DNA of 55,226 bases from positions 1 through 55,226 of the forward strand of contig JACDGP010000020.1 of NCBI GenBank assembly GCA_013821605.1, in the 5' to 3' direction. The notes beneath the pieces are model-generated. The model was not told where the DNA came from. It saw only the letters and a list, made by a program, of their open reading frames with translations, and did not search any database. Positions 3,821 through 13,307 of the stretch are shown here, piece after piece. The translations under genes and the position numbers were made by a program. Origin of the DNA: Herpetosiphonaceae bacterium. Lineage in GTDB: Bacteria > Chloroflexota > Chloroflexia > Chloroflexales > Kallotenuaceae. The stretch's first letter is position 1; each line of letters opens with the position of its first letter.

Positions 3821-4534
3821 ATGCCAACGATTTTACTGGTCGAAGACGAGGCGGTGCTGGGCGAGACGTTGCGCTATAACCTTGAGCGCGAAGGCCATAC
3901 GGTGTTGCACGCGACCGATGGTGTGCAAGGTCTGGAACTGGCCCGTAGTTCGCAGCCAGATTTAGTGATCCTGGATGTCATGCTGCCCCGGCTCGACGGT
4001 TTTTCGGTCTGCCGCATTCTACGAACTGAGTCGGCGGTGCCGATCCTGATGCTGACGGCCCGCCAGGACGAGGTAGATCGCATCGCCGGCTTGGAACTCG
4101 GAGCCGATGATTATGTGATCAAGCCCTTTAGCCTGGGCGAGCTGCTGGCGCGGGTGCGGGCGATCTTAAGGCGCGGCCAGCGCGACACTGCAGGGCTGCA
4201 ACGCGAACTGCTTCAAAGCGGCGAACTTAAAGTTGATACCGGTTCGCGCCGTATGTGGCGCGGGAACCAAGAAGTCGTTTTATCGGCCAAGGAGTTCGAT
4301 CTACTGGCGTGCTTGATGCGTCATCGTGGCATGGCATTGTCGCGCGATTTGTTGCTCGAACGCGTGTGGGGCTACGAGTTCATCGGTGACTCGCGCACGG
4401 TCGATGTACATGTCCGCTGGCTACGAGAAAAGATCGAGCGTGACCCATCTCAGCCCGAGTATGTAACCACGGTGCGTGGTATCGGCTACCGCTTTCAGAG
4501 CCCCGAAGATGTGCCGGCCCCGGCGCACTCGTAA
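3821..4534 (+). CDS. OmpR/PhoB-family response regulator
   Basis: A 237-residue two-component response regulator. Residues 1-120 are a receiver domain with acidic pocket E8-D9, phosphoacceptor D52 in LVILDVMLP, and the switch Lys in DDYVIKPF. Residues 135-230 are a winged-helix DNA-binding domain ([28 protein letters not shown], then [16 protein letters not shown] and VRGIGYRF). The histidine kinase starts 9 bases downstream, so the pair forms one operon. The resemblance is to PhoB/PhoP-type regulators; no Pho genes are nearby, so the signal is unknown. Confidence 0.93.
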
Positions 4535-4543
4535 GTATAGCTG

Positions 4544-5731
4544 ATGTGGTGGTTAAGCGGCGCACTGCTCGTCGCGCTCCTGCTCCTAGGTGTCTGGGCC
4601 CTACAGCTTCGGCGCAAACTCGCGCGAGCGGTGGCTCCTCCGTCGCCACCACCGCCCGCCTTTGATAAGCTGCCAGGGTTGCTCCAGGCGATTGGCAGCA
4701 GTCTCGTCGAGGGCTTGTTGATCTTCGAAGCCGACCGGCGGATCTCGTTTGCCAACCCGGCGTTGAGCGAGATTCTAGAAGCGCAGTTCGACCATATCAT
4801 CAACCAGAGCTTAATCACCGTGTTGCGCGACTATTACGCCGACGACCTGATCACCCATGCGTTGGCGACTGGCGAGCAGCAAACCACGACCCTGCAACCA
4901 ATCCTCTCGCAGCGCCGGCTGATGCTCACCTGCCAGCCGCTGCCCCCGATGATCGGGGGTGGCGTGATCGTGGTGCGTGATCTGACGCAGCTCGTACAGT
5001 TGGAGCGAGCGCGGCGCGAACTTGTTGCCAATATTTCACACGAGCTCCGTACGCCCCTGGCCTCGATCCGCCTGCTTGTTGATACGTTGGCCAGCGATCC
5101 ACCACCCGAGGTGGCGCGCCGGATGGTCGGGCAAATCAACGATGAAACTGAGGCGATGACGCAGTTACTTGATGAGCTACGCGAGTTAGCCCAGATCGAG
5201 TCGGGACGCGCGGCCTTGCAGCTTGAGCCAATCGACATATGTGAGGTCATCGAGCGCGCGGTCACGCGTTTACGACCGCAGGCCGAGCGGCGCGGGCTGC
5301 ATATTGATACCACCTGTGGAGCAGATTTGCCACTTGTGATGATCGATGCCGAACGGATCGGGCAGGTCTTGCTGAACTTATTGCACAACGCGATCAAGTT
5401 CACCCCGGATGGTGGCATGATCACGATCCAGGTGTGTCCGGCGACTCCAGCTCCCACACCACGCGTCGCCCGTGAACTGCAGCAGGTCGAGGGTGACACG
5501 TGGGTTGTGGTAGCTATGACCGACACCGGCATCGGTATCCCTAGTCGGGAGATCGAGCGGGTTTTTGAGCGATTCTATAAAGTAGACCGGGCGCGGACCC
5601 GTAACAGTGGTGGCACCGGCCTGGGGCTAGCGATTGCCAAGCATCTGGTCGAACGCCATGGCGGAAGGATCTGGGTCGAATCGCGCGAAGGACACGGCAG
5701 TACCTTTAGCATGCTTTTGCGAGCCGCCTAA
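4544..5731 (+). CDS. PhoR-like sensor histidine kinase
   Basis: A 395-residue membrane sensor kinase, partner of the response regulator just upstream. It has one N-terminal transmembrane helix (about residues 2-20, [17 protein letters not shown]), a proline-rich linker, then a PAS-like domain (about 45-150). The HisKA region has phosphoacceptor H166 in [13 protein letters not shown]. The HATPase domain shows [16 protein letters not shown] (N box), DTGIGIP (G1), [12 protein letters not shown] (F box) and [15 protein letters not shown] (G2). There is no large periplasmic sensor domain, so sensing probably happens at the PAS domain or membrane. Its stop lies 10 bases from the end of the convergent CHAT gene. 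Confidence 0.93.
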
Positions 5732-5741
5732 GCGAGCGCAG

Positions 5742-8700
5742 CTACTTCGGCACGCAACTGATCGTGTCGGGATCGACGCGCCCCACCTTCGCCTGTCCCA
5801 GACACGACTGGATACTCCACACGTTATGTCGCACACTTTCCGCCAGTCCAGTCGTTGCTAGCAGGCGATTGAGGCTTTGGAGCAGATCGGTGTAGAGCGC
5901 CGTACGGACCGATTTTGGCAGATTCGCCACATCATGGATCGTCTGCTCATAGGCTTGGGCAGCTGTCAAAGGTACGGAGTTCCGGGTATGCGTATTCATG
6001 ATCGGCTGGCCGGTGGCTAGCGCCACGAAACCGCTCAGCAAGAAGTAATCAGGCTGTGGTCCCGAGTCGTTAGCGGTTGGATCAGCGACATCGACGGCCT
6101 GCAACTCCTCGCGCGCCCGCTCATATGCTGCCGCGCTATCTGCCGGATGATCGAGCGCCTGGGCAATCGCGGCTTCCGCCAGCGCCAGACGAGCAGCATT
6201 GTGAGCCAAATATTGGCTCCAATTCAACCATTCGGTGCCGTAGCTTTGCGCACGCTTAGGGTCCGGGTCGGTCTCGGTACCGGCGGTAAAATCATCAACG
6301 GCAGCGCTGTATTCGGGCAAGATCGTACGCCAGGGATGGGAGCCGCAGCTATGTCCTTGCCACGTCAGGGCCAGGGCCATATGGAGCCGTCCACGCCAAT
6401 AATGATAGGCGACCAGCTCCGGCAATGGTTGTTGAGGGGTTGGGGAGCCCCGCTGCTCAATGGTCGCCGCATCAATCGCTTGGTCCATATCACGGATTGC
6501 GCGCTGTATCCAAATATCGTAATTCTCGGTAAGACAGCCCGGCAGATCCACCATATCGCGATAGCCGACGGTTGCCTCATGATCGCTGCGAGCAATATCA
6601 TCAACTGCGCTCGAAACATTGTTAAGCGCGGGCGTTTTCCGTAGGTTGTAGTACAAGATCGAACGGGTCGCGTAATATTGACCAAGCGTCCCACGCGTGG
6701 GAGTAGTCGACTTGAGCGCCTTGGTTTGCTGAATTAACTCGGTTTGGGTCAAGGCAATTGTGTATTGCTCAACCGCATGCAAGAGCAGCCGTTGGTAGCC
6801 AGCCCGTAGCGCTCCACTGGGTGCCGCCGGAATCTGCTCGCCTTGCAACCACCAAGCCAAGCCGCTGAACGTTGGATAGCGCGGGTCTTGTGGCGCGTTG
6901 AGATGTGCCTGTAAGAGTGGATACTGCGCCTGATCCCAGGCGTCCAGCAACATTGCAGTCCAGGCTACGCCGGCGTTGGCCTCAGGATCGGCGGGCTGCA
7001 CCAGCGTCGCGCGACGATACGCCGCTTGCGCCTCCATATAGGAAGCGTGGGCTCCGGGAGCGTCGACCGGACGTATTGTCACCGGAACATTGCCGCGTTC
7101 CAGCCAAGCTGCAGCCAAGCCCATGAGACTATCATAGTGGGCTTGCGTGTTGCTCGCCGGTGCATCAGCAATGGCCGTATAAAGCCGAATCGCGGTGCCC
7201 AAATCTTCCCAAGCACGAATCGGCCGACAATCGAAAGGGCGGCTCACGCCAGCGGTATCACTGACCTTTTCGCTCGCAGTCAACGGATTGGAGACGTAAT
7301 AATTCGTTACGGGCACATTCGGATGCTCAAACGCGGTGAGTTGTTGGACGGCCCTGTTATACCAGATATCGGCATACTGTAGGGCGTACTGCGTATCACC
7401 CGAGTTCAAGCGTAGCACCTCGAGTGGTGGAGCATTCGAGGTGCTCGTGGCGAAGCATTGGGCGAAACCTCGTGGGACCGGAAATGTGTCGACCGTCCTG
7501 GCAACCTGTGGCAGCACCGCGCTGCGGTAGCTGTAAAGCGCGGCGCTGAAGGCAGTGGCGGGAGTAATCCCAGCACCACCCTGAGCCTGACGTGCGTACA
7601 CTTCGCCTAGGCTCGCCGCGAGATTTCGCCGCGCTGCCCCATAGAAGCGTGGCAACTGGTTCTGAGCCTGCTCAAAATACCCGGCTGCACCGATCGTCGC
7701 ACCCGCGCGCAGCGCCGTAAAGCCACGCGCGCCATAGCCCTCCGGATCAGCACCACGCAGTTCGATCATACGTGCATAGCGCCGGTCCGCCTCCTGTAGG
7801 GCTGGGCACTGGAAATCTTTACACGACGGATCGCCACCGGCAAGCTCAAGTGCTCGATTTCCCAAGATCAGGTTGCGGTACCAGAGACCATCGTTCCATA
7901 CGTGATACATGCAAAAGAGCAGTGGCACGAGCGCAAGGAGCGCGAGGAGCCTCGTGCTAGCTCGATCCTGCACGGTCTCGCGCGTGGCGTAGTGGTGGCG
8001 CAGACGTAGCAAGCCCAGGGCAGTGAGCGCCAATGCAATGGCCAGCAGCGGCAGCAACAGGTCGGGATTAAGACCAACACGCGATAGATCCACACCCCAG
8101 AAGAGCGCAGCACTGATAGCGAGTGCAATCGCTACTGCGAGGAGGGCACAGCTACGACTCACATAACGGACCGTCAAACTCGCAAGTGGTTGCCAGACAA
8201 AAACCCAGCATAATGGGAGCAGCAACCCCGGGGTCGCCAGAATATACAGCTCGGTAAGATGAACGGGGCCGTTGCCGGGACGCAGCAGCATGACCGTGGG
8301 ATAGAAGGTGATCAACGCCAGAAATAGACCGATGCCAATGATCGTGAGCACGAATAAACTACCGGCTACCGAACGGACGAGATCGCCGGCCAGTCGCTGC
8401 TGGGGTGCGACAATACGGTGCGCAAGCTCCCCCACCAACTCGTCGTAACGCGCGACCGAGCCATCGATTACGAGTGCTGGTGCCGTGGGCGTTTCCGGCA
8501 GCAGCACGCGCTCCGACAAATCATAGACCACCAGACCGTTGACGCGGCGCTCCGTCACCAGTGTCGCTTTGACGTCGGAATAGGCGAGCCGTCGCTCAGT
8601 CTGCACTTCAGCGGGTTCGCTTGTCTCGGGCAGCGTCGGGTTGGGCAATAAGCCTCTGCCGATCCGGCGCTGGATCGAGGTCAGCGAGCGCAGGAAGAGT

Positions 8701-11700
8701 GTGCGCCAGGTACGCCAGCGGCTGCCACTGATCGGCGTGCCGCGCCAGATGATCATCTCTGCGCGCAAAATGAGACGCCCAGGGCGGTAGCTTTGGAATT
8801 TGTTTGGTTCGGAGATCAGGATGAACAGCAAACCACCGAGGGTATACAGCAAGATGGCAATGACGATGCCTCGGCCAATCGCCAGCAATGTTGTACTGGC
8901 ATACACGAGCGGGCTGCCGGTCTTTAGGATGATCTCGCCACTGTCGCTCGCGGTGCTCTGGACCAGCGTTAACGCCTGAACGCCCTTCACCGAGCTATGG
9001 GTTCCTACTAGATTGTCTGGGAATCCACGCAGATCAACGAGCGGCGGCTGAAGGATGGTCTTGGTACGCGCTGGCACGAATTCAAGTGTGCTGGGCAGCT
9101 GTATTGCCCAAAGCAGACCAACCAGCAGCAAGAGCGGGTTAACAACAATCGCCGCAGCCTGAAACCAGTAGAGCAGGGGATGCTCGAAGCGCTGCGGAAA
9201 GTGACGTTCGATCGAGCGATCAAGCAAGCCGTCGGCACGCAGTTGCTGTTCTTCCGCCAAGACATTGGTTTGGCGTAAGCTCCAAACCGTACCGAGCAGA
9301 CGGCTACGCCCGGCAGCCGGATCCACTTGCGTGACGTCATCACCTTCCAGTGTGCTCAAGTGGTTCCATGCCACCACCCCATCTTCGGCACGACGCAGAG
9401 CCAGATCTTCGTAGTTGGCAGCACCTTGCTCGTCGCCATGGAGCCGGAGCAGCTGTGCCTGATGCACATATGTATAGACTAGCGCATTGCAGGTTCGCGC
9501 CTGAGGCATCGGAGCATCCTGCGCCATAAACTGGCGTAAGGCCGCTTCGAGCAATGGGGCGGCGCGGCCACTTTGACCCAGCCGCGCTAGGACTTCACCC
9601 AGGCGCAAACGCCATAACGCTTCTTGCCATGGCCGGTCAATAGTAGAAGTGCTGGCAAGCAGATCATTAAAGGCCGTAGCAGCACCATACAACGCATCAC
9701 AACGCACATATATCTGGCCGATACGATCATGAAGCTCTTCCACGCTCGCCGTATCACCACGCCGGTCGGCGATGACCACTGCTCTGGTATAAGAACGCAG
9801 GGAGCGTACCAGCAGTCGTACGACGCTCCAATCGCGGCCCCGGCAGAGCCATGGACAGCCTAAGGCGAGATCCTTTAAGGTAAGACCCGAGCGCAGCAGC
9901 GGAATTGCGCTATACAACAACGCCGGCAGGCGTAGCAACATACCCCAGAGCACCACTAAACTGCGTAACGGCCCACCATGCGGGATTGGTCGCATTTCGT
10001 CGGTGCCGAGCAACTGCTCCGCAATGATCGTGTACGCGTCGCCCTGCGCGAGCAGTGTCCGCTCTAGCTCCTCCAAGGCCACTTCCGTTTGCGGTGAACG
10101 TTGACGGTCGGTGAAGTACAGCCGCCGGCCGCGCCGCAAGGGCGCAAGGGCACGTGCCCGCATGATCCCGGCTTCCGCCGATTTGAGGAGCGCAACAGCA
10201 GTAGTCCAGGCGTTGGGGCGCATCGTACCGGGATCAAGCAATGCAAGCGCTTGAGCACGCAAGACCCGCGCGCGCAAGAGCGGATCTGGGACTTGATCCT
10301 CGAGTTGCTGCAGGTCGGTCAGGAGCGGCACTACCCTCACCCCAGCCGCTGTGCCGGCAGGGGCAGTTGTGATACCGAGTTGTAGGCCGCGTTGCAGATG
10401 ACGCCACCGATAGTGCGCACGGTAGCTACTCATCTCGCTGTCACCGTTATCCGCTTGAGCTTCCAGCACCTCTGCCAGCCCGCGATCCCACACCCGACCT
10501 GTCTCGGGTAAGGTCGTGCGTAGATAATCGGCAAAGGAACGGCTGTATAAGGCATACAGCGCGGGCTGCGTCATGGATGGAGGAGCAAGGACGCTGTTCA
10601 ATCGTTCGAGCGACGTGTGTACTGCTGTTTGAGCACAGCCGGTGAGCAGCGCCAACAGATGCTCGCTGAGCGGAGCGAAGGTGATCGCCAGCCCAGCGAG
10701 GACCGCTTCATCTGTGGCATCGGGCACCGCATCCAGATTATGGTGGAGCTGCACCAGCACATCGCTATAGGCACTCACCAGTGCAGCATCAAGCTGCTCG
10801 GGGTGTTGGAGCAAGGTGGCCGGGTCGATCCCTTCCGGGCTGCCGGTGCTACCTAAGGCGCTATGGAGCGTATCGACAAAGCGCCGAGCGTATAAGAATG
10901 ATCCTTCGGTCGCAGCAGCTACATTGGTCATTAAAGCCGGCAGCCGGTTATCAGTCGTAAGTGAAGCATAGGGCTCAGTAGCTTGCAACAACATGTTGAG
11001 CTTCGTACGCGCCCCGGCCTGCAGCCGCTCGTTCCATTCCACACTTAAATAGTGTGTGATGTCGTTGATGGTTGTCACGACATCTTGGCCCAGGTTCAAC
11101 ACTCGTACACCGCCATGTGTCCGCAAGGTTTGCACTGCTGCTCCTGGACGCGCCGTGCAAATGAAGTTGACCCAGGGTGGCATGTCCTGGACTTCACTCA
11201 ACAGTGTCACGATGTTGCCGGATTGACCGCCATCCCACTCCCACGCCCGATCCAACGCATCAACCATAATGGCCAGTGGCACCGGCTGATTATCTGGCCC
11301 AAGTTCGCGCCGGTAGTCCTTTAAAGGCTGCTGGATCAAACGACGAAACGCTTCGCGAGGATGGACTTCGCCCAGATTAATGTCGCCGGTATGAATACCT
11401 TCGACGTTGCCACGATTCGTCGCAACCTGCACGTTGCTCTGCAAGATCAGCGTTGTAGTACCGGTGGCGGAAGGTGCCGCGACGGTATAGTTCGGCAGCA
11501 ACGTTTTGATCTGATTGGCCAACTGTTGAATGAAATCCTGGGGATTATCGCCGTCGTCAACGCCGCAAAAATGGTAGAGCCAAGGATACGCCGTCGTAGC
11601 CGATTGGGCAACGCGCCAAGCACCCAAGGCGGTTTTGCCAGAACCGGGCGGTCCGACAATGACCAACATGCGATTGCGTACCGTCAAAAACTCGTTGATC

Positions 11701-13307
11701 TCACGCTCGATCGTCGGGCGTTCGACAAAGTTGCTCGTTTCTGCAAACAGGGTCTGGACAGCGGGAGACGTCGCCATCAAGTTTGCTGGGAGCGCAGCAG
11801 CCGTGGTGGTTGCAACACTCGCAGTGGTGACGGTGGGAGTTAGCGCAGCTTCGACCGGCTCAAGATGCGCTGCAGCCACCGGATCGGCGGGACGCGGCGG
11901 TGGCATCGTTGCCGCCGAATCAGGTACGGAACCATTCGTATGACCATCCGCCCCACCATTTTTGCCATCACTGTGGAGATCCAGATTCACAACACGTAGA
12001 CCAACGACGGTGCCAGATTGCTCAACAGCATCGATCTGTTGGTTAACAACCAGTTGGCCATTCTCTACCACGACGGTACCGAGGTCGAGACCGATCACGC
12101 TACCGGCGATATGTTTGATCGCTTGGTTAACCACCAGCGCGGCTTGAGCCTGCTCCAAGGCTGCCGTCAACGGTGTGCTGTAGTGGAAGAGCCGTGCTTC
12201 GGTAGTGCGCATATAGATCACGGGGCAGCCCCAGCCAGTCGTCAGCGGGACGCTACCGGCCATACGCAAACGCCCCTCGGCGACGGCAACATCGACGGTC
12301 GAACCGGTAGCCAGGGCCGTATAAAAGCCAGCGGCAAAGGCACGCGCCTCATCATCGCCCACCGGGAACTGCATCGCAACGACAGCAGGAACTCCTGCAG
12401 CGAGCAATTGCTGCGCGACGCCATTCCAAACACCCCGGTCTACGCGTGCCGACTCGCAGGCGGATAGCACGACGACCTTCACACCCTTGCCGTGGAATTC
12501 TGCTGCCAGATCGTCGGCAGTGACCAGATGGCTGGTGTTGGGATCTTCGTCGTCGTGAAAGATGAGGCCCGTGCTGCCACCGGAAAAATAACCATGACCA
12601 GCGAAATGCAACAGATCGACATGGCGATCACCGGCCAGGGCAGTCTGAAGATCCGGCCAACGTGCCTGCTTGAGAACAGGTAATTGTATGAGTGCCCCAG
12701 CGGGCAACTGCTGTAAACCGGCTTCGACACGCTGCTCTTCTTGCTGGAGCTTAAGTGGCGGTTGATCGGGCGGCTCGGCTAACACCAACAAGACATCAAG
12801 CGGCAAATGGTCGTCGGTAACGGGCAGCACAATATCCTGTGGATCACCGCCCACCCGCACAAATGAGATGCGCGGGTCGCCGAGCAATGCCAAAGGTGGG
12901 CCATCCGGCAGCAGCGGCACCTGCAGGTATTCCCACGGTGGTACAGCTAGCACCGGTAGGCTGCATTGCAGCCGCAGGCGCAACGAGCCGTTATGCGTGG
13001 CCACGTCGCGCCACAGCACTTGAAAGGCCGGTCGTATCAGCGCCGGCGGCAGCAACAGATCGCCCAGCGTCACCCCCAGCGTTTGTTGTTGGTCGCGTGG
13101 GAGGGTAGGTGTAGTGCTCAGTTGCGCACCGAGCTGCTCAAGCAGTGCAGCATCATAGGGCACGACCACCGGGCCCACCACCGGACCCGCACCGCTTAGG
13201 CTGACGGCAAGATGCATGGCATCCGGTTGATCAAGCATGATCGTCAGATTAGCGGTAGAACGTTCCTCCACCGGCGGCGAGCTAGGGTTGAGAGCTGTCA
13301 TGGTCAT
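5742..13307 (-). CDS. Giant CHAT-domain protease/P-loop ATPase/TPR membrane protein
   Basis: One uninterrupted 2521-residue protein. Residues about 90-370 form a CHAT (caspase-like) domain with the catalytic dyad visible: His near 236 in LLHFAGHGYF and Cys near 284 in VVVLSACESA. A Thr/Ala/Pro-rich linker (about 450-520) leads to a NACHT/AAA-like ATPase with Walker A IVGPPGSGKTALG near 552 and a Walker B-like IMVDALDRAWEW. Residues about 850-1370 are helical and TPR-like. Two hydrophobic helices lie near 1385 and 1480, and about five more between 1650 and 1795 (for example LFVLTIIGIGLFLALITF). Residues about 1800-2500 are again helical repeats. CHAT proteins are known peptidases, some of them activated by partner sensors; substrate and trigger here are unknown. 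It is convergent with the PhoR-like gene and divergent from the secreted propeller gene. Confidence 0.85.
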   Translation of the reverse strand: MTMTALNPSSPPVEERSTANLTIMLDQPDAMHLAVSLSGAGPVVGPVVVPYDAALLEQLGAQLSTTPTLPRDQQQTLGVTLGDLLLPPALIRPAFQVLWRDVATHNGSLRLRLQCSLPVLAVPPWEYLQVPLLPDGPPLALLGDPRISFVRVGGDPQDIVLPVTDDHLPLDVLLVLAEPPDQPPLKLQQEEQRVEAGLQQLPAGALIQLPVLKQARWPDLQTALAGDRHVDLLHFAGHGYFSGGSTGLIFHDDEDPNTSHLVTADDLAAEFHGKGVKVVVLSACESARVDRGVWNGVAQQLLAAGVPAVVAMQFPVGDDEARAFAAGFYTALATGSTVDVAVAEGRLRMAGSVPLTTGWGCPVIYMRTTEARLFHYSTPLTAALEQAQAALVVNQAIKHIAGSVIGLDLGTVVVENGQLVVNQQIDAVEQSGTVVGLRVVNLDLHSDGKNGGADGHTNGSVPDSAATMPPPRPADPVAAAHLEPVEAALTPTVTTASVATTTAAALPANLMATSPAVQTLFAETSNFVERPTIEREINEFLTVRNRMLVIVGPPGSGKTALGAWRVAQSATTAYPWLYHFCGVDDGDNPQDFIQQLANQIKTLLPNYTVAAPSATGTTTLILQSNVQVATNRGNVEGIHTGDINLGEVHPREAFRRLIQQPLKDYRRELGPDNQPVPLAIMVDALDRAWEWDGGQSGNIVTLLSEVQDMPPWVNFICTARPGAAVQTLRTHGGVRVLNLGQDVVTTINDITHYLSVEWNERLQAGARTKLNMLLQATEPYASLTTDNRLPALMTNVAAATEGSFLYARRFVDTLHSALGSTGSPEGIDPATLLQHPEQLDAALVSAYSDVLVQLHHNLDAVPDATDEAVLAGLAITFAPLSEHLLALLTGCAQTAVHTSLERLNSVLAPPSMTQPALYALYSRSFADYLRTTLPETGRVWDRGLAEVLEAQADNGDSEMSSYRAHYRWRHLQRGLQLGITTAPAGTAAGVRVVPLLTDLQQLEDQVPDPLLRARVLRAQALALLDPGTMRPNAWTTAVALLKSAEAGIMRARALAPLRRGRRLYFTDRQRSPQTEVALEELERTLLAQGDAYTIIAEQLLGTDEMRPIPHGGPLRSLVVLWGMLLRLPALLYSAIPLLRSGLTLKDLALGCPWLCRGRDWSVVRLLVRSLRSYTRAVVIADRRGDTASVEELHDRIGQIYVRCDALYGAATAFNDLLASTSTIDRPWQEALWRLRLGEVLARLGQSGRAAPLLEAALRQFMAQDAPMPQARTCNALVYTYVHQAQLLRLHGDEQGAANYEDLALRRAEDGVVAWNHLSTLEGDDVTQVDPAAGRSRLLGTVWSLRQTNVLAEEQQLRADGLLDRSIERHFPQRFEHPLLYWFQAAAIVVNPLLLLVGLLWAIQLPSTLEFVPARTKTILQPPLVDLRGFPDNLVGTHSSVKGVQALTLVQSTASDSGEIILKTGSPLVYASTTLLAIGRGIVIAILLYTLGGLLFILISEPNKFQSYRPGRLILRAEMIIWRGTPISGSRWRTWRTLFLRSLTSIQRRIGRGLLPNPTLPETSEPAEVQTERRLAYSDVKATLVTERRVNGLVVYDLSERVLLPETPTAPALVIDGSVARYDELVGELAHRIVAPQQRLAGDLVRSVAGSLFVLTIIGIGLFLALITFYPTVMLLRPGNGPVHLTELYILATPGLLLPLCWVFVWQPLASLTVRYVSRSCALLAVAIALAISAALFWGVDLSRVGLNPDLLLPLLAIALALTALGLLRLRHHYATRETVQDRASTRLLALLALVPLLFCMYHVWNDGLWYRNLILGNRALELAGGDPSCKDFQCPALQEADRRYARMIELRGADPEGYGARGFTALRAGATIGAAGYFEQAQNQLPRFYGAARRNLAASLGEVYARQAQGGAGITPATAFSAALYSYRSAVLPQVARTVDTFPVPRGFAQCFATSTSNAPPLEVLRLNSGDTQYALQYADIWYNRAVQQLTAFEHPNVPVTNYYVSNPLTASEKVSDTAGVSRPFDCRPIRAWEDLGTAIRLYTAIADAPASNTQAHYDSLMGLAAAWLERGNVPVTIRPVDAPGAHASYMEAQAAYRRATLVQPADPEANAGVAWTAMLLDAWDQAQYPLLQAHLNAPQDPRYPTFSGLAWWLQGEQIPAAPSGALRAGYQRLLLHAVEQYTIALTQTELIQQTKALKSTTPTRGTLGQYYATRSILYYNLRKTPALNNVSSAVDDIARSDHEATVGYRDMVDLPGCLTENYDIWIQRAIRDMDQAIDAATIEQRGSPTPQQPLPELVAYHYWRGRLHMALALTWQGHSCGSHPWRTILPEYSAAVDDFTAGTETDPDPKRAQSYGTEWLNWSQYLAHNAARLALAEAAIAQALDHPADSAAAYERAREELQAVDVADPTANDSGPQPDYFLLSGFVALATGQPIMNTHTRNSVPLTAAQAYEQTIHDVANLPKSVRTALYTDLLQSLNRLLATTGLAESVRHNVWSIQSCLGQAKVGRVDPDTISCVPK

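Follow-up and report, generated by a model that had tools for sequence, protein, structure and literature searches.

A STAND-type ATPase joined to a CHAT caspase-like protease and a predicted seven-helix membrane core in a Chloroflexales protein

Architecture of the 2521-residue protein

We analysed a 55,226-nucleotide stretch of DNA (the window) that makes up positions 1 to 55,226 of contig JACDGP010000020.1 from a Herpetosiphonaceae bacterium (assembly GCA_013821605.1), and we describe one of its genes, an open reading frame (ORF) on the minus strand (5742–13307) that begins with ATG and encodes 2521 residues. An N-terminal CHAT peptidase domain is followed by a STAND-type ATPase, a helical region, seven predicted transmembrane (TM) helices and a large C-terminal domain. 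We propose that the product is a membrane-integral, NLR-like STAND receptor that carries a CHAT caspase-like effector and senses a signal from the outside or the envelope, a reading in which our confidence is about evenly balanced. The architecture itself is genuine; what makes it unusual is the membrane module, which is rare and is predicted to carry a domain on the outside. The position and length of the ORF had been given exactly by a first-pass annotation of the sequence, and the gene is real: homology spans residues ∼ 16 to ∼ 1880, which rules out a frame error or a chance ORF.

The CHAT domain

Judged by sequence and model, the N-terminal domain is a CHAT peptidase with a caspase-type fold. 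Residues 174–350 match PF12770 (E = 4e-29, 102.4 bits against a cutoff of 24), and together with N-terminal strands the caspase-like protease covers residues 18–380 (12168–13256, minus strand). The predicted catalytic residues are His238 in the motif HFAGHG (codon 12594–12596) and Cys284 in LSAC (codon 12456–12458). Among the aligned CHAT relatives of the order, Cys284 is present in 29/29 and His238 in 28/29; the one sequence that does not show the His has a gap in the alignment there. The His/Cys dyad proposed in the first-pass annotation is therefore borne out, and loss of the pair in relatives, which had been named as a possible objection, is not what the alignment shows.

The model of residues 164–369 superimposes on the CHAT part of an activated SAVED-CHAT filament (8tl0) with a Z-score of 20.3 and a root-mean-square deviation of 2.6 over 186 residues, on caspase-7 with a Z-score of 12.9 and on the TPR-CHAT protein of Craspase (Csx29) with a Z-score of 12.2. 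The shared fold does not extend to the mode of control: SAVED-CHAT is switched by its nucleotide-sensing SAVED domain and TPR-CHAT by guided RNA recognition, neither of them by a fused STAND ATPase. PADLOC lists only SAVED_CHAT (for the CHAT part), a weak BovA and a weak BrxF for the 2521-residue protein, and no antiphage STAND (Avs) model. The protease is followed by linker strands that contain a GTVVG-type motif (residues 405–445; 11973–12095, minus strand), modelled with a predicted local distance difference test score (pLDDT) below 50, and then, up to residue ∼ 520, by a linker of low complexity. Sequence searches of the PDB with CHAT and linker returned no relatives.

The STAND-type ATPase

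The P-loop ATPase recognised in the first-pass annotation is well supported. Residues 520–845 (10773–11750, minus strand) contain a Walker A motif, GPPGSGKT (552–559; 11631–11654), and a Walker B motif, MVDALD (681–686; 11250–11267), the latter hydrophobic and of the D-[GA]-h-D kind expected of STAND ATPases. The G, K and T of the P-loop and the DxLD signature are invariant in the four sequences compared.

Assignment to a family is less direct. All Pfam matches lie below cutoff (AAA_16, E = 1.4e-5, 26.1 against 32.6; NPHP3_N, E = 4.7e-5, 24.1 against 24.8; nSTAND3, 15.1 against 27.2), no STAND or AAA model reaches its cutoff, and neither NACHT nor NB-ARC has a row in the Pfam scan of the protein. 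PDB sequence searches with the other halves of the protein gave P-loop or chance-level matches only. The model of the ATPase, with pLDDT mostly between 70 and 88, resembles Avs3 (Z 13.7), chain C of the MalT complex 8bob (Z 13.8), the STAND-TPR protein 6mfv (Z 12.6) and plant NRC2 (Z 11.9); Apaf-1, NOD2, Dark and RPP1 are also among its Foldseek matches. Since ORC/Cdc6 structures match equally well (Z in the range 12–14), STAND and ORC cannot be told apart by fold alone. We call the domain a predicted STAND-type (NLR-like) ATPase on the combined grounds of motifs, modelled fold and domain order, and not NACHT or NB-ARC proper. The earlier description "NACHT-like" is supported as far as a STAND-type (NLR-like) ATPase and has no backing from the Pfam family models.

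The segment after the ATPase, at the position of a winged helix, is helical in the model (pLDDT ∼ 40–60). It opens a region (residues 846–1383; 9159–10772, minus strand) that is modelled as all-helical and TPR-like and ends in a conserved juxtamembrane sequence, ERHFPQRFEHP. TPR matches here are weak (E = 0.05; 6e-4 for TPR_12 in L003, a distant relative encoded in genome G048).

Membrane core and topology

Seven strong hydrophobic helices begin at residues 1384, 1480, 1650, 1687, 1721, 1749 and 1787, with mean hydropathies of 1.86–2.68, and form a predicted membrane core (1384–1805; 7893–9158, minus strand). No shuffled sequence out of 3000 placed seven such stretches within ∼ 420 residues. 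All seven recur in L003, which is 32% identical in this region, although the sixth helix is weaker there. The alternative that these are buried helices of a soluble protein, raised as an objection in the first-pass annotation, is contradicted by the strength and clustering of the stretches and by their recurrence, and we conclude from the sequences that the membrane core, with the approximately seven helices suggested earlier, is real.

A further, moderately hydrophobic helix (1117–1135; 9903–9959, minus strand) is conserved in L003 and interrupted by an Arg residue. We did not count it as a TM helix; it probably lies on the membrane surface or is buried. An eight-helix model that includes it was rejected because it would put Arg/Lys-rich loops outside.

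With seven helices, an N-in/C-out topology was assessed from the numbers of Lys and Arg residues beside the helices (Fisher test). In the window protein, 17 such residues fall inside and 8 outside (p = 0.06); in L003 the counts are 19 and 4 (p = 4e-4), and pooling the two proteins gives p = 1.7e-4. Everything N-terminal to the core (CHAT domain, ATPase and helical region) is thus predicted to be cytoplasmic, as is loop 2; the 716 C-terminal residues and loop 1 are predicted to be outside. Loop 1 (77 residues, 1403–1479; 8871–9101, minus strand) contains a conserved GFPDN motif. Loop 2 (151 residues, 1499–1649; 8361–8813, minus strand) consists of 14.6% Lys and Arg, and its end, taken with TM3, is similar to a small membrane protein that is encoded separately in Kouleothrix (G079:C3389). 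On that contig, the 113-residue match to loop 2 and TM3 (L051, L076, L077) is found on both strands, which points either to a duplication in inverted orientation or to a hairpin in the assembly.

The C-terminal domain (716 residues, 1806–2521; 5745–7892, minus strand) has eight Cys residues, of which the pair Cys1829/Cys1834 is conserved in L003. Its similarity to TPR proteins is suggestive: Pfam matches are sub-threshold (best E = 0.12), and L003 has a TPR_1 match (E = 1e-4) at the corresponding start. An AlphaFold model of the membrane and C-terminal half, built from an alignment of two rows, had a mean pLDDT of 37 and was not used. The first-pass annotation had spoken of two long helical-repeat regions and asked which side of the membrane each faces. 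The first region is all-helical in the model and predicted to lie inside with the rest of the N-terminal part; residues 1806–2521 are predicted to lie outside, with their repeat character unproven.

Relatives and origin of the fusion

Four genomes carry the ATPase half: the one studied here and three others of the order, namely G048, Kouleothrix aurantiaca and another Kouleothrix. The L003 and Kouleothrix sequences (L032, L033) are 33–39% identical to the window protein in the ATPase. In these three other genomes the ATPase stands at the very start of the protein, and the divergent gene just upstream leaves no space for a CHAT domain. L003 shares the entire helical and seven-helix region, to residue ∼ 1871, whereas the Kouleothrix contigs end before the membrane part; L003 is thus the only relative that covers the seven helices. 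A profile of the membrane half, run against 400 genomes of the phylum, found outside the window genome only marginal matches of 45–113 residues (best E = 2.6e-4).

The CHAT half has a different setting. Among 20 long CHAT ORFs surveyed from the order, a Walker A motif follows closely behind the CHAT domain in nine, and a multi-helix membrane core was seen in none of the 20. A Pfam scan identified five of these nine as CHAT-STAND-TPR or CHAT-STAND-WD40 proteins (L052, L054, L063, L066, L071). They share with the window protein an N-terminal CHAT domain, a STAND-type ATPase and repeats, but have 0–2 isolated hydrophobic stretches, no TM cluster and no predicted outside domain; their TPR or WD40 matches are strong, and most match NACHT or nSTAND1 clearly. 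The CHAT-STAND half is thus ordinary in Chloroflexales, and since such proteins are common in the order in versions that have no membrane core, the pairing of CHAT with STAND is a reused one. The ATPase-membrane half is rare and is also present without CHAT. The architecture called unusual in the first-pass annotation is so in its membrane half and commonplace in its CHAT-STAND half; looking for the same arrangement in related genomes recovered the ATPase-membrane half in L003, and the CHAT domain in none of the three other genomes.

A tree built from 48 CHAT domains groups the window domain with L004 (support 0.84), apart from the CHAT-STAND fusions. L004 (1291–3408) is a CHAT protein of 706 residues that has no ATPase and carries several GTVxGxxIG-type strand repeats after the CHAT domain; the motif is that of window residues 412–442 and possibly acts as a homotypic adaptor. 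The different nearest relatives of the two halves fit a fusion between a CHAT half and a membrane STAND half. They would also suit the view that CHAT is a recent passenger, weakly used or decaying, on a protein that mainly does what the membrane STAND module does in its CHAT-less form. As both catalytic residues and the surrounding CHAT motifs are intact, we consider this very unlikely.

Comparison with known systems

Avs antiviral STAND proteins resemble the window protein in the order effector–STAND–sensor and in the modelled ATPase, but they are soluble. In an alternative reading, the protein is an NLR that senses in the cytoplasm and is anchored in the membrane: residues 846–1383 would recognise an intracellular ligand such as a phage protein, and the membrane core would position the complex or act as a pore effector, also in the relatives that have no CHAT domain. 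L003, which keeps ATPase and membrane core, fits the membrane part as an output, and Avs proteins use repeats at their C-terminus to detect phage proteins (summary in PMC10907252). Such cytoplasmic sensing would nevertheless leave the 716-residue predicted outside domain, its conserved Cys pair and the conserved loop 1 unexplained, and it has no support from a defence-gene context; we regard it as rather unlikely.

For a receptor with its sensor outside, the metacaspase-CHASE2 protein of Trichodesmium is by analogy a precedent for wiring a caspase homologue to an extracellular receptor domain: a caspase-superfamily protease is predicted inside, a receptor domain outside, and several TM helices lie in the same chain (PMC3501461). 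It differs in having a metacaspase in place of CHAT and a CHASE2 sensor, and no STAND ATPase is mentioned (PMC3501461). Conflict systems with membrane and caspase parts have been described in multicellular bacteria (PMC7159879). The general theme is therefore known; the CHAT-STAND-seven-TM-outside-domain arrangement was not found in the literature searched.

Genomic context

The gene is single-copy in its own genome, which gave one further match, to a shorter CHAT protein encoded on a different contig. The second CHAT protein of the genome (L002; G000:C63:45397-46254) lies in a 623-residue frame with hydrophobic stretches at 418 and 530. On its 5′ side, the gene is flanked by a divergent lactonase-like gene. 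Positions 3821–5731 hold an OmpR-type response regulator and a PAS-HisKA-HATPase kinase, which are convergent with the CHAT gene and end 10 bases away from it; this orientation rules out an operon with the two-component genes. Other neighbours are housekeeping genes (sugar-nucleotide enzymes, phosphoglucomutase, dehydroquinase, EF-P, exonuclease VII and similar), and no defence genes or defence island were seen in the examined neighbourhood.

This setting suits the strongest competing account of what the protein does, a HetF-like morphogenesis protease. The protein would then be a membrane CHAT protein of a division or filament structure, its outer domain touching the envelope machinery and its STAND domain serving as a local switch. 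The host order includes filamentous bacteria, and the NCBIfam HetF model matches residues 105–368 with E = 6e-10; the score of 38.1 is, however, far from the cutoff of 1200 bits, and the match is limited to the CHAT domain. HetF of Anabaena, a protein of the divisome, likewise combines an N-terminal CHAT domain with membrane anchoring and a TPR region, but it has one TM helix and no STAND domain is shown (PMC8406250). The 2521-residue gene is also patchy even within its own family, unlike a core division gene. Overall, we judge a HetF-like role unlikely.

Proposed mechanism and implications

In the receptor that we favour, the C-terminal domain and loop 1 would bind their partner outside the cytoplasmic membrane, be it a ligand, an adjacent protein of the surface or a signal of envelope damage. 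The seven helices and the helical segment would relay the change to the ATPase in the cytoplasm, and the ATPase would exchange nucleotide and oligomerise in the plane of the membrane. CHAT domains brought together in this way could then cleave a cytoplasmic target or neighbouring copies. The order effector–STAND–helical–sensor, as in NLR and Avs proteins, speaks for this proposal, as do the structural matches of the modelled ATPase and CHAT domains, the conserved dyad, the pooled Lys/Arg counts and the reuse of the CHAT-STAND pairing in the order; the outside ligand, ATP-driven oligomerisation, activation of the protease and any role in defence or cell death are suggested by analogy.

Several observations weigh against it. 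The positive-inside signal of the window protein by itself is weak, and the model of the C-terminal domain is unusable. Past the first 74 residues of that domain, no relative was found in 158 genomes of the class. The neighbourhood offers no defence genes, and the relatives with the ATPase half have no CHAT domain, so that the module must have another output there. The first-pass annotation had suggested a membrane sensor that releases protease activity: the N-in/C-out topology fits a sensor with a cytoplasmic protease, but since three other genomes encode the ATPase half without CHAT, protease release is not the job of the whole family.

Sensing takes place inside the cell in the bacterial NLR-like proteins used for comparison, and the window protein may be a membrane-spanning cousin of these usually soluble receptors. 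More tentatively, Chloroflexales could hold a class of transmembrane NLR-like receptors, each with a membrane STAND switch and an outside sensor, to which a CHAT effector can be added. Through such receptors, surface events such as phage adsorption, contact with neighbours or kin, or envelope damage would be coupled directly to cytoplasmic proteolysis and possibly to cell death. The CHAT-less relatives provide a natural pair for comparing the membrane module alone with what CHAT adds. A membrane STAND ATPase with a large outside domain would let a single polypeptide take surface signals directly to an NLR-type switch and to a caspase-like protease.
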